Part shown: piece after piece, positions 13,066-56,620 of the stretch | How the letters are laid out: the number at the start of each line of letters is the position of its first letter | Numbering within the stretch: the first letter of the stretch is position 1 | Origin: Halobacterium sp. CBA1132 | GTDB taxonomy: Archaea; Halobacteriota; Halobacteria; Halobacteriales; Halobacteriaceae | Assembly: GCF_001485535.1 (NCBI RefSeq) | Contig: NZ_BCMZ01000001.1 | Coordinates: 2,418,001-2,482,000, forward strand | Length of the DNA: 64,000 bases | Reading direction: 5' to 3' | Translations under genes and position numbers: made by a program | The notes under the pieces: model-generated | The model's input: only the letters and a program-made list of their open reading frames with translations | Told to the model about the DNA's origin: nothing | Database searches by the model: none

Positions 13066-13143
13066 TACGCGCAGGTAGGGGGCGGGGACACTACTGTTCT
13101 TCGGTGCTGTAAAAGTATAATGTTCAGAAATATGGAACCAGAA

Positions 13144-14391
13144 TTACTTTTTCTGATTGATGTCCAGATCCTCCTCCATTTCACGGACCTTTTCTACAGC
13201 AGCTAAGTAGCGCTCATCCTCTTCTAATTCCTCCACATCACCGTGGGTACGAAGTGTAGTTGTCAACGATTGGAGCCGGAAATATTCTCGAAATTCATTG
13301 GAGAAATCCCGTATCTCAAGTAGCCGATCAGCTTCCTCAATGAGGACATCTCGTGCCATCGGCTTTAGAAGGTAATCATCAAACGGGACATCCAATATTT
13401 CAGGCGACGGATCAACAGCGCTTAGAGCGACAATTGGGATATCATATCCTCGCTCTCTTGCAACTTCGGCAATTCTATCACCGGACATTTCCGGCAATCG
13501 ACGGTCAACGAAAACCAAGTCCGCGTCCTCCAGATGCTCAATGGCTTCCTGCCCCGAATAGACAGGAATTGTTTCATACTCATCACTCAACCAAGTAGCA
13601 AAAAGATCCGCAAGGGGCTTCTCATCATCCACAAAGAGAATAGTTGGCTGCGAATCTCCTTTGGTGTGTGCGGTACTCTCGACAGTTGTGAATCCCTCCT
13701 CAATCGCGTCATGGATATTAGTAACTTCTGTGCCAGAGGGAGTGTCAACCGTGAAAACTAATTTCTCATGTTGATTATCGATAAGATCCTCAAATTCTAA
13801 TTTAACGTTGTATTTTATAGATTCACTATCATACTGAGCTATTTCGCTTGTAGCGTCCGAATCAAATGAGAGAGAATCTTCCGACCGGAACTCGACATCA
13901 GATTCGCTTGGTTGGATCGCGTCCTTTTCACGCTTGCTAACCCGGTGCATGCCAACATTCAGTAGATCAGGAACGATTGAGATGAGCTCATCAGATTTGT
14001 ATACTTCAGCAGCCACCGTTAACTGGAAGGATTTAGCAGCCCCAAATCCATGATTCGATAGCGTGACCGATGCGAAGTCGGAGCCGATACTCCACGACTG
14101 AACTACCACATCAGGATGGTATTGTTCCTCTATTTTGGAGAGTGTTTCAATTGCCTGAATTTTCTCTTTTCTCTCTTGGGAGAGAAGGCGGTGTTGGTAT
14201 ACCAATAGGACGGCAAAAAGGGCTAAAACTGTGGATATAGACGCCAGAACGATAGACAAGATAGTTGATGAGCTATCCAGATTAGAAGACAGAAATGCGA
14301 TTAGGAGGACGCCGACCATAGTTACAACTAACAGTCCAAGAAGAGCCGTCACCAAATTGCTCGGCTTAATTTTACTCTTGAACATTTTCAC
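13144..14391 (-). CDS. Membrane-tethered response regulator: 2 TM + extra domain + receiver + HalX
   Basis: The product has 415 residues. Two transmembrane helices (about 13-34 and 43-65) are followed by a basic coiled segment and a beta-rich domain of no known family (about 90-240). A receiver domain (about 249-358) follows, with the acidic pocket D255/D256/E257, phospho-acceptor Asp296 (FVDRRLP), Ser324 and Lys343 (LLKPM), all in place. A C-terminal helical region (about 358-410) resembles the HalX domain that follows receivers in haloarchaea. No DNA-binding or kinase domain is visible. The codon use and AT-rich bases differ sharply from the neighbours, suggesting recent acquisition. It follows the three-helix protein gene by 4 bases and probably shares its transcript. 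Partner kinase unknown. Confidence 0.85.
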   Translation of the reverse strand: MKMFKSKIKPSNLVTALLGLLVVTMVGVLLIAFLSSNLDSSSTILSIVLASISTVLALFAVLLVYQHRLLSQERKEKIQAIETLSKIEEQYHPDVVVQSWSIGSDFASVTLSNHGFGAAKSFQLTVAAEVYKSDELISIVPDLLNVGMHRVSKREKDAIQPSESDVEFRSEDSLSFDSDATSEIAQYDSESIKYNVKLEFEDLIDNQHEKLVFTVDTPSGTEVTNIHDAIEEGFTTVESTAHTKGDSQPTILFVDDEKPLADLFATWLSDEYETIPVYSGQEAIEHLEDADLVFVDRRLPEMSGDRIAEVARERGYDIPIVALSAVDPSPEILDVPFDDYLLKPMARDVLIEEADRLLEIRDFSNEFREYFRLQSLTTTLRTHGDVEELEEDERYLAAVEKVREMEEDLDINQKK

Positions 14392-14395
14392 AATT

Positions 14396-14734
14396 TTATT
14401 GTTCTAATTCAGTGAGGACATCTCTCACAAGTAGACCAACAGCCAATCCGAATATCACTAACCCACCTAAAGAGAGACCTGCACCCCACTTCAAGAGTGG
14501 GTCAAGTTGACTCCCAATAATGACGACAACGAACAATAGACCGGCGAGAGCTAATACAATAAATCCAATAAGAGCAACAATAAGAGATGTTGTTTTCCTC
14601 ACAACAGAGAGATCGCTGCTGTGACGCGCGTAGAAACTCACCATAGTTTGAAGAAGTATCGCGAGCAGCGGAAGTAAAAGATAGATTCCAGATATCAGAC
14701 GTAGTGCTACGTCTGTTGATTGAGAAAGGGGCAT
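14396..14734 (-). CDS. Three-helix membrane protein, partner of the membrane response regulator
   Basis: The product has 112 residues with three strongly hydrophobic segments (about 10-33, 49-74, 82-104) and short charged loops. No family is recognised. It is AT-rich like the next gene and lies 4 bases before it on the same strand, so the two form one transferred cassette. It could serve as a membrane anchor or signal-input subunit for the response regulator; this is inferred from proximity only. Confidence 0.65.
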   Translation of the reverse strand: MPLSQSTDVALRLISGIYLLLPLLAILLQTMVSFYARHSSDLSVVRKTTSLIVALIGFIVLALAGLLFVVVIIGSQLDPLLKWGAGLSLGGLVIFGLAVGLLVRDVLTELEQ

Positions 14735-14794
14735 CTGCCTGTTACTTCATGAGTTAGATAAAACAGACGCATAAAAACTTGTGTTTGGGAGTTA

Positions 14795-15085
14795 CTACAG
14801 CCGCATGAACTGCGCGTGCACGGTGCCGTCGAGGTCGAGCACGTTCGCTTCCTCGACGTGGCCCTCCTCGATGGCGAGGTCGACGACGTCGACGCCGACG
14901 AGGTTCGCGACGTTCGCACGGGCCAGCGACTCGCGGACGGCGTCCGGGTCGACGCGCTCGCCGCCGTAGAACTCCTCGTTCACGGTGAACTCCGTGTCGC
15001 CGTTGGCGAACGTCTCCCCGAGGACGTCGGGGTCGCAGGCGGTGACGAGGAGGCCGCGGTCGGTCTGTCGCTCGCTGAGTATCAT
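14795..15085 (-). CDS. DUF424 family protein
   Basis: The product has 96 residues. It follows the archaeal DUF424 pattern: GLLVTACDPDVLGETF, then FYGGERVDPDAV, then ANLVGVDVVDLAIEEG and a C-terminal GTVHAQF. The ATG overlaps the stop of the TPR gene by one base (TGATG), so translation is coupled. DUF424 is near-universal in Euryarchaeota and often lies beside translation genes; its biochemical role is unknown. Confidence 0.88.
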   Translation of the reverse strand: MILSERQTDRGLLVTACDPDVLGETFANGDTEFTVNEEFYGGERVDPDAVRESLARANVANLVGVDVVDLAIEEGHVEEANVLDLDGTVHAQFMRL

Positions 15086-48405: not shown

Positions 48406-49872
48406 TCAGCAGAACGTGAAGAAGAGCCAGGCGGGGACGTGGACGATCTCACCGGTTTCTACGGACTCCTGTCTTAGCTCCCCGGCTCTGTTCACGACGA
48501 TGCCGAACTTTGCGGGCGTCGAATCGAGCACGGCTCGCAGCCCGCGGAGGTCCTTCCCGACCGGATCCCCGTTCTTCACCTCGACGGGGAGACAGTACGA
48601 CGGCGTCGAGAGGACGAAATCAACCTCCCCTGGGTCGTCCCAGTACGACACCTCCGCCGTCTGGTAGTCGGAAAGGTGGAACTGGAGGCGCTTGCAGAGA
48701 TCGAAGCACGCCGTCTCCAGAATCCCCCCCATCGCGTCGGGGTTGTCGAGCGTCGATTCGACGAGATTCGAGTTCAAGGTGTTGAGAAGCCCGGTATCGG
48801 GAATGTAGATTTTCTTCTGCCCGCCACCTCCGTACGCCGACGAAGAGTACCGTGACACGCGGCCGATGAGGAAGAACTCCTCTAGGTAGTCGAGGTAGTT
48901 CTCCACGGTCTCTCGGCCGACCGACAACGACTCCTGGAGACTCTGCACGCTGAACTTCTGCCCGGAAGAGTACGCCACGAGGTTCAGCAGTTCGAGCGCC
49001 ACCTCCGGTTTGCGAACGTCGAACACCGATGGAAGGTCGCCGCGGACCGTATTTCGGAGATTCGTGTCCAGAGCTGCGAACGCGTCGACGTACTCTTCGT
49101 CCAGGACATCCGGATAGCCGCCCTTCAGCAGGTAGTCGTTGCTCAGCGAACGGAGCTGTGGCTCCGTCTCACCGAACCGGCCGTAAAACCCCGCTAGCTG
49201 GTTCGTGAACGCATCTGGGTCTCCTTCTCCCAGAGACTCCTTCAGAGCATCCCGGATTCTGTGCGCGTCGTCCGCGACTTCCACCTGGCTGAGGACGTCG
49301 TGATATCGCGCGTACTCCGCGAACTTCATCGGCATCAGGAGGTACTCGTCGAGCCGTCCGACGAGAGACTCGCTTGCGTCCCGGCGGATGAGCGTGCTGA
49401 TTGAGCCTGTCACGACGAATTTCAGGTTCTCAAACGTGTCTGTGTAGTACTTCACTGTCTCCGCCCAGTTCGGGATTTTCTGTATCTCGTCAACGAAGAC
49501 GTAGACGCGACCAGATGCGTCTCGGATCGACTTCCCGAGAATGTTCGCCTCGTAGGCCTCGATTGAATCCTCGATCAATCCGTCCACTTCGGGGAGTAGC
49601 TGAGTGTTTTCCGCGTTCACGTAGAGGACGTGCTCGGGCTCGGTCAGGGGGCGTTGCAAGAGGGAGTCGATGAGTTGGCCGACCAGCGTCGTCTTCCCGA
49701 CCTGTCGGGGACCACGAATCGTCAGCACTGGCCGTTCGTCGTGAATCCGACCTCTCAGGTGGTGGAAGTCCAGTCGGTGGTGATCAGCTTTCAGGAGGGA
49801 GTTTGGGACCTCGTTGCCATCCCACCACGTATTCATCCGCGAGAGGGTTCGGAGGACATCGGCCTCGTTCAT
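48406..49872 (-). CDS. AAA ATPase of the DUF4143 family
   Basis: The product has 488 residues. P-loop RGPRQVGKTTLVGQL is near residue 55, Walker B YVFVDEIQKI near 128, VVTGSIS follows, and a C-terminal DUF4143 region carries the nuclease-like GEVDFVLSTPSYCLPVEVKNGD. Such ATPases are sporadically distributed and often lie near mobile or defence genes; function unproven. The ATG at 49872 is about 25 bases after an AAATTTTTGAAC box on the minus strand. The codon use is less GC-rich than the neighbours, suggesting transfer. Confidence 0.85.
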   Translation of the reverse strand: MNEADVLRTLSRMNTWWDGNEVPNSLLKADHHRLDFHHLRGRIHDERPVLTIRGPRQVGKTTLVGQLIDSLLQRPLTEPEHVLYVNAENTQLLPEVDGLIEDSIEAYEANILGKSIRDASGRVYVFVDEIQKIPNWAETVKYYTDTFENLKFVVTGSISTLIRRDASESLVGRLDEYLLMPMKFAEYARYHDVLSQVEVADDAHRIRDALKESLGEGDPDAFTNQLAGFYGRFGETEPQLRSLSNDYLLKGGYPDVLDEEYVDAFAALDTNLRNTVRGDLPSVFDVRKPEVALELLNLVAYSSGQKFSVQSLQESLSVGRETVENYLDYLEEFFLIGRVSRYSSSAYGGGGQKKIYIPDTGLLNTLNSNLVESTLDNPDAMGGILETACFDLCKRLQFHLSDYQTAEVSYWDDPGEVDFVLSTPSYCLPVEVKNGDPVGKDLRGLRAVLDSTPAKFGIVVNRAGELRQESVETGEIVHVPAWLFFTFC

Positions 49873-50011
49873 GCCGGCAGTAAATTCCGCTAGTTCAAAA
49901 ATTTGGGGTTGCAGTCGCAATTTTACTCCGGAAATGCGGGAGTGCAGTCGGTATTTCTATCCCGAATATTTTGACCGCGCTCTGAACTGGGATAGGATAC
50001 CGGTCAGTTCG

Positions 50012-56021: not shown

Positions 56022-56426
56022 CTAGCTACAATCGCCGGAAGCGAGGTTCGTCACGTCGAGGTGTGACTGGAGGACGGTCGTCTCGAAGTCGCCGTCGGCG
56101 ACAACGAGTTCGTCGCCGGTAGATTTAGCGGTGGCCGCGATGAGCAAGTCGCGGGCGGCCATCCGCTGGCCGTCGTCGAGAAGCGCGTCCTGCAGCGCGG
56201 CTGCCTCGATAGCGACGTCCTCGGTGAGGTCGATGGCGTGGACGCCGTCGAAGTCCCGGCGCGCAGCACGAACGTCCGTCGATCCGCTGCCGAGTTTCCC
56301 GTTCAGCACCTCGAACACGCACAGCGACGACGTGAGGTACGGTTCAGGCTGGCGCTGGACGTATTCGACGGTCGCGTCGACGCCAGCGAGCATGTCGATG
56401 ATGACCGACGAGTCGAGGAACGTCAT
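56022..56426 (-). CDS. vapC: VapC-type PIN-domain ribonuclease toxin
   Basis: The product has 134 residues. PIN acidic residues are Asp5 (LDSSVIIDML), Glu39 (FEVLNGK), Asp93 (ARDLLIAATA) and Asp111 (VVADGDFE), a complete Mg2+ site. It cleaves RNA, often tRNA or rRNA. The ATG overlaps the antitoxin stop by 4 bases (ATGA). Confidence 0.9.
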   Translation of the reverse strand: MTFLDSSVIIDMLAGVDATVEYVQRQPEPYLTSSLCVFEVLNGKLGSGSTDVRAARRDFDGVHAIDLTEDVAIEAAALQDALLDDGQRMAARDLLIAATAKSTGDELVVADGDFETTVLQSHLDVTNLASGDCS

Positions 56427-56620
56427 CGCTGGAAGCTCTCGCGGGACGCGCGAACGGCCTCGCGAGCGCGGTCGGCTTCCGCCTCGGACCACGCGCCGAC
56501 GTCAATCGGGTCTTCCTCGTCGGCGAGCCGACTGAGGAAGTCGTCCCATGTCTCGTCGTCGCGCTTGAGCCGCGAGAGCTTCGACTTCGTCTCGTCGCTG
56601 ACGCGGATGCTCGTGCTCAT
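56423..56620 (-). CDS. vapB: VapB-type antitoxin
   Basis: The product has 65 residues. The N-terminal MSTSIRVSDETKSKLSRLKR is a ribbon-helix-helix/DUF7557-like DNA-binding start, and the C-terminal acidic tail would wrap VapC. It is the first gene of the vapBC operon. Its start lies 2 bases from a perfect inverted repeat (56622-56640), the expected autorepressor site. Confidence 0.87.
   Translation of the reverse strand: MSTSIRVSDETKSKLSRLKRDDETWDDFLSRLADEEDPIDVGAWSEAEADRAREAVRASRESFQR

Follow-up and report, generated by a model that had tools for sequence, protein, structure and literature searches.

The output domain HalX is common in haloarchaea: a 2018 census of archaeal two-component systems lists it in more than 550 proteins and gives its layouts as HalX, REC-HalX and HxlR-REC-HalX (PMC5847659). 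The same census describes membrane-anchored archaeal response regulators, the MetOD3-REC-MetOD2 proteins of Methanoregula, with four members (PMC5847659). Among Bacteria, the Caulobacter LytTR proteins with TM regions and the hybrid transmembrane transcription regulators (TTRs) of Bacteroides carry receiver and output on one membrane-bound chain; a 2023 survey reported hybrid TTRs as bacterial and, among archaeal transmembrane transcription regulators, none that carries a receiver domain (PMC10269533). Our literature searches for a membrane-anchored or transmembrane HalX regulator added nothing to these two papers.

Here we describe a locus of Halobacterium sp. CBA1132, lying in a 64-kb stretch of DNA that is referred to below as the window. 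The explanation that we favor, and consider probable, is an acquired two-gene cassette encoding a small three-helix membrane protein and a chimeric REC-HalX regulator, the latter fused to a complete mobile haloarchaeal membrane module. The features of the locus are as follows.

13108..14794, no strand assigned: acquired AT-rich cassette of 1687 bp, delimited by comparison with 12 sister genomes and by GC
13144..14385, minus strand: fusion gene in its 413-aa form, with two predicted TM helices, helical linker, beta-rich domain, receiver and HalX-like end
13657..14385, minus strand: N-terminal module (residues 1-243), a full copy of the 2TM / LSNxGxGxA family
13333..13641, minus strand: receiver domain (residues 251-353 of the 415-aa form), PF00072, E=8.7e-13, with D294 of the 413-aa form as phosphoacceptor
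13162..13311, minus strand: divergent HalX-like C-terminal domain (residues 361-410 of the 415-aa form), PF08663
14396..14734, minus strand: gene for the 112-aa protein, predicted to have three membrane helices; its haloarchaeal family is ~105 aa long
14757..14763, minus strand: candidate TATA box TTTTATC, with the ATG of the three-helix gene ~26 bases downstream

Set against the described systems, the C-terminal 170 residues of the fusion protein resemble REC-HalX regulators (PF00072 + PF08663), with a best identity of 46%, whereas the 243-residue membrane module before REC and the divergent HalX set it apart, and its layout matches none of the published HalX architectures (PMC5847659). With MetOD3-REC-MetOD2 it shares, by prediction, a membrane-anchored N-terminal domain (~180 aa in MetOD3), REC and a small helical output; however, the lineage and the output domain are different, MetOD3 is likened to the module by layout and not by sequence, and Pfam reported no MetOD2 match in the fusion protein. 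Since these proteins are known, the fusion belongs to a known, rare kind, the membrane-anchored archaeal response regulator, and the premise of an earlier note on this DNA, that response regulators are normally soluble, must make room for exceptions in the literature, one of which is archaeal and similarly laid out. The bacterial transmembrane response regulators likewise have receiver and output on one membrane-bound chain, but many hybrid TTRs have kinase domains and recognized DNA-binding domains, unlike the fusion (PMC10269533). As for the haloarchaeal 2TM / LSNxGxGxA family, residues 1-243 constitute a full-length member, and all other members examined are without REC. What is new in the fusion protein is its N-terminal module and, for HalX, the layout.

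The acquired cassette

The cassette has a GC content of 44.0% (0.440), against 0.687 +/- 0.026 for segments of equal length in the rest of the 64 kb, the lowest of which has 0.593; this places it at -9.4 s.d. within the stretch. GC3 is 0.35-0.44 in the cassette genes (0.35 in the small gene and 0.44 in each half of the fusion gene) versus 0.93-0.95 in two measured neighboring genes. The AT-rich character claimed in the earlier note is thus upheld by both the GC and the codon check, with values far under those of the neighbors.

In 12 further genomes of the genus, the sequences flanking the cassette lie together, and the ends of the two alignments are 28-365 bp apart. In the closest sisters, which have ~95% identity on either flank and a spacer of ~40 bp, the alignment ends after 13107 and restarts at about the stop codon of the DUF424 gene (14795-14797), so that ~1687 bp replace the ~40-bp spacer. 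Because the cassette is absent from the 12 sister genomes, it was acquired, and the empty site together with the foreign base composition supports horizontal transfer, as the earlier note had supposed. On the other side of the cassette from the DUF424 gene lies a gene which, from its sequence, we take to be a sufS-like cysteine desulfurase; the CACTACTGTTCTTCGGTG motif upstream of sufS, conserved among the sisters, is undisturbed by the cassette. No integrase gene was seen in the cassette and no target-site duplication is evident, a scan of the cassette ends having returned no repeat.

The two cassette genes look like one operon here. They lie on the same strand, with the three-helix gene found at 14396-14734 (minus strand), 4 bp from the GTG start of the fusion gene as had been noticed earlier and 10 bp from the ATG at 14385, and the upstream TATA is promoter-like, its ~26-base spacing being usual for leaderless haloarchaeal transcripts.

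The fusion protein

The long ORF, 13144-14391 on the minus strand, encodes 415 aa from a GTG start at 14391 and 413 aa from an ATG start at 14385, and we prefer the latter. Kyte-Doolittle hydropathy peaks occur at 6-24 and 42-60, and positive residues precede helix 1 and follow helix 2; by the positive-inside rule, this suggests an N-in/C-in hairpin and a cytoplasmic position for both the beta domain and REC-HalX. Two structure models were poor (mean pLDDT 51.8 and 50.4), so the helical hairpin alone is moderately supported. The N-terminal module can be aligned along its whole length with stand-alone relatives, and REC starts within a few residues of its end. Pfam and hydropathy recover the two N-terminal membrane helices, the receiver and the HalX-like end that had been read from the DNA, and at the level of sequence the description as a membrane response regulator is borne out.

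The receiver scores 48.9 bits against PF00072 (cut-off 30.2). Its acidic pair, phosphoacceptor, Ser and Lys are complete as D253, D254, D294, S322 and K341 in 413-aa numbering; these equal the D255, D256, D296, S324 and K343 of the earlier note (minus 2), all of which are present. The HalX match (PF08663), at 23.0 bits in hmmscan versus a cut-off of 23.2 and 25.8 bits in the whole-genome search, spans model positions 3-52 of 68, leaving the last 16 unmatched. Six other host genes score 54-83 bits in the latter search, which marks this copy as divergent; the HalX-like C-terminus reported before is therefore probably present, though divergent and short.

Over residues 239-411 the protein can be aligned with ordinary REC-HalX regulators from the whole of Halobacteria, the alignments reaching residue 408-411, and the best match is a stand-alone regulator of ~195-200 aa. 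In a quick tree the receiver sits on a long branch of 1.06 substitutions per site. In six other REC-HalX genes of the host genome GC3 is 0.85-0.95, against 0.44 in the fusion gene, so that the receiver half is no recent loan from the host. Among the matches listed, no second protein matching both halves was found in 391 haloarchaeal, 146 other-family and 26 own-family genomes, in large searches that scored the best few candidates per genome and of which one ran without a positive control. Other REC-HalX matches in long frames were considered as membrane fusions and rejected: of those read, some are proteins of ~570-590 aa with an N-terminal REC followed by further regions, and the others are ordinary regulators with over-long open frames. 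As to a kinase, HATPase_c has no match in the window; the nearest is ~150 kb off, and the 27 matches across the 3.0-Mb genome include possible phosphodonors for the regulator.

The two membrane families

A single-sequence search with residues 1-243 in 391 haloarchaeal genomes returned weak matches in 16 others, down to E=1.2e-8, of which at least one (in genome G200) is an unrelated membrane protein. A profile of 16 sequences then gave matches in 108 of the 391 genomes at E<=0.001, the weakest being short matches that may be due to chance. The module of the fusion protein, itself one of the 16 profile sequences, matches profile positions 1-255 of 264 (E=6.9e-58). In family members, N-terminal membrane helices and a helical linker precede a beta-rich domain that bears an LSNxGxGxA motif, kept in the fusion protein as LSNHGFGAA; Y63, N111, G113 and G115 do not vary among the 16 aligned sequences. 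The beta-rich domain, formerly called unassigned, thus belongs to a recognizable haloarchaeal family, although it remains true that none of the libraries searched models it. Neither Pfam, NCBIfam, PHROG nor PADLOC has a model that describes the family, no PADLOC model matches it above chance, and no relevant solved structure was found. Profile scans of the beta domain gave weak and inconsistent matches (CARDB once, at E=0.076). IMG/VR, queried with the module and two subgroup alignments, yielded no relative, nor did plasmid and phage records for the module.

The possibility that the fusion protein is a start-site or fusion error is ruled out because most stand-alone relatives bear N-terminal helices too. 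Hydropathy peaks number two in nine of the 15 stand-alone relatives, three in one, one in three and none in two, and the last two, while without a peak at the threshold used, still keep a hydrophobic N-terminal stretch. An AT-rich composition is common in the family: the member gene is AT-rich in 14 of 16 neighborhoods (GC3 0.34-0.54; 0.73 and 0.78 in the other two), so normal composition, which the earlier note named as a refutation if seen in close relatives, is the exception. Members mostly stand alone as AT-rich genes, in regions of a mobile or defence-like character, some of them, in a raw listing of neighbors, near a type I restriction subunit, XhoI, Eco57I-like enzymes, a PLD-helicase or an integrase. 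No receiver was found in long-frame members in the regions read, and no other case of a receiver joined to this family was found in the genomes searched.

The host has a second, stand-alone copy of the family (region L161, 4792-5664, minus strand; 290 aa, GC 0.45), which sits in an apparent integrated element with an adjoining small gene of the MRIRTDGDYA type and an ATPase gene nearby; small genes of a similar kind are found close to family members in regions L029 and L043. Three further stand-alone members are flanked by genes for proteins of 130-140 aa (L031, 7612-8001; L032, 7775-8176; L034, 6223-6618 and 7559-7975). These proteins are of one kind, starting with LEELVVDRKRVNKRRVAEAL or similar, and are possibly the true partner of that subgroup. 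Among the motif-scan matches listed, none of which is haloarchaeal, one bacterial protein fits the family convincingly: a 227-aa relative from a Prevotellaceae MAG (L201, 2889-3572, minus strand; E=1.8e-7), which suggests that the family extends into Bacteria; its gene is flanked by an EcoRI-like methylase gene and a DUF262-like gene, both named by eye.

The 112-aa protein has Kyte-Doolittle peaks at 9-27, 55-73 and 81-99 and matches the profile of its own family, in which it is included, over its full length (E=3.2e-37); independent relatives from single-sequence searches reach E=3.0e-5. The family occurs in 53 of 391 haloarchaeal genomes at E<=0.001, and its members commonly adjoin a gene that by eye is beta-propeller-like or oxidase-like. 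In genome G061, a 279-aa membrane protein has the three-helix domain at its N-terminus (L107, 964-1803, minus strand), and its gene lies in an AT-rich stretch with GC 0.51.

A conserved pair is ruled out by relatives of either gene that lack the other. No three-helix relative occurs in any of 27 regions surrounding matches to the profile of the N-terminal family, and at none of 29 other three-helix loci is there a member of that family or a REC-HalX gene within ~1.5 kb on each side. The signalling pair proposed in the earlier note therefore fails as a conserved unit, both families keeping other neighbors elsewhere, and the operon is a new combination.

Interpretation and further features of the window

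Fusion of two AT-rich mobile genes, ahead of or in the course of acquisition, may have brought no selected joint function, leaving REC-HalX tethered by chance and acting, if at all, as an ordinary regulator. The fusion is found in one genome only among those searched and neither half has a fused relative, so that it could be a recent, unselected accident; the divergent HalX and the long receiver branch point the same way. Nevertheless, both halves are complete, the 413-codon frame is open, the catalytic residues of the receiver are all intact and the N-terminal core motif is kept, and we regard a merely neutral chimera as possible but rather improbable. Defence, or service to a mobile element, could be the task of the protein if its N-terminal module does the work and REC-HalX ties that action to a host kinase. 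Some stand-alone relatives do lie near restriction-modification or helicase genes, as the Prevotellaceae relative lies beside its methylase and DUF262-like genes, but the PADLOC result and the position of the window copy, between housekeeping genes and not defence genes, make such a task very improbable indeed.

The output is a further point of divergence. HalX has a predicted helical structure in which a helix-turn-helix might form (PMC5847659), and receiver domains are known in bacterial transmembrane regulators (PMC10269533); were HalX to bind DNA, the protein would be a membrane-tethered transcription regulator and an archaeal hybrid transmembrane regulator. However, DNA binding by HalX is undocumented (PMC5847659), and the 2023 survey has no archaeal counterpart with a receiver, in a search that would have missed HalX if the domain is off its list of DNA-binding domains (PMC10269533). 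We therefore think this role unlikely. Signalling without DNA binding, as put forward in the earlier note, likewise finds no support in either direction.

Under the reading that we prefer, an acquired cassette with a chimeric regulator, the hairpin would serve as the membrane anchor, leaving the beta domain and REC-HalX on the cytoplasmic side. D294 would be phosphorylated by a histidine kinase encoded elsewhere, altering receiver dimerization or contacts, and HalX would relay the signal to a partner close to the membrane, be it protein or DNA. The beta domain, possibly together with the three-helix protein, may provide a second local input or fix the location. A membrane-bound REC-HalX protein of this kind might merge a membrane-proximal cue, received through the mobile module, with phosphorylation by a host kinase, and it might be the first haloarchaeal response regulator acting from the membrane; we offer this as a tentative and somewhat doubtful proposal.

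If true, such a protein would provide a handle on the roles of the module and of HalX, and a HalX regulator at the membrane raises the question of whether HalX can act away from the chromosome. The fusion ties a widely scattered, undescribed membrane family to a receiver, and since receiver biochemistry is well understood, the function of the linked family becomes easier to test. Should the fusion be a mere accident, what lasts is that two small membrane families have been delimited.

Elsewhere in the window, a second lower-GC stretch (0.575 over 49001-50000) contains a gene for a 504-aa AAA_14 / DUF4143 ATPase (48406-49920, minus strand), and a PIN-domain protein (56022-56492, minus strand; PF01850, E=1.5e-9) is possibly a VapC-like toxin.
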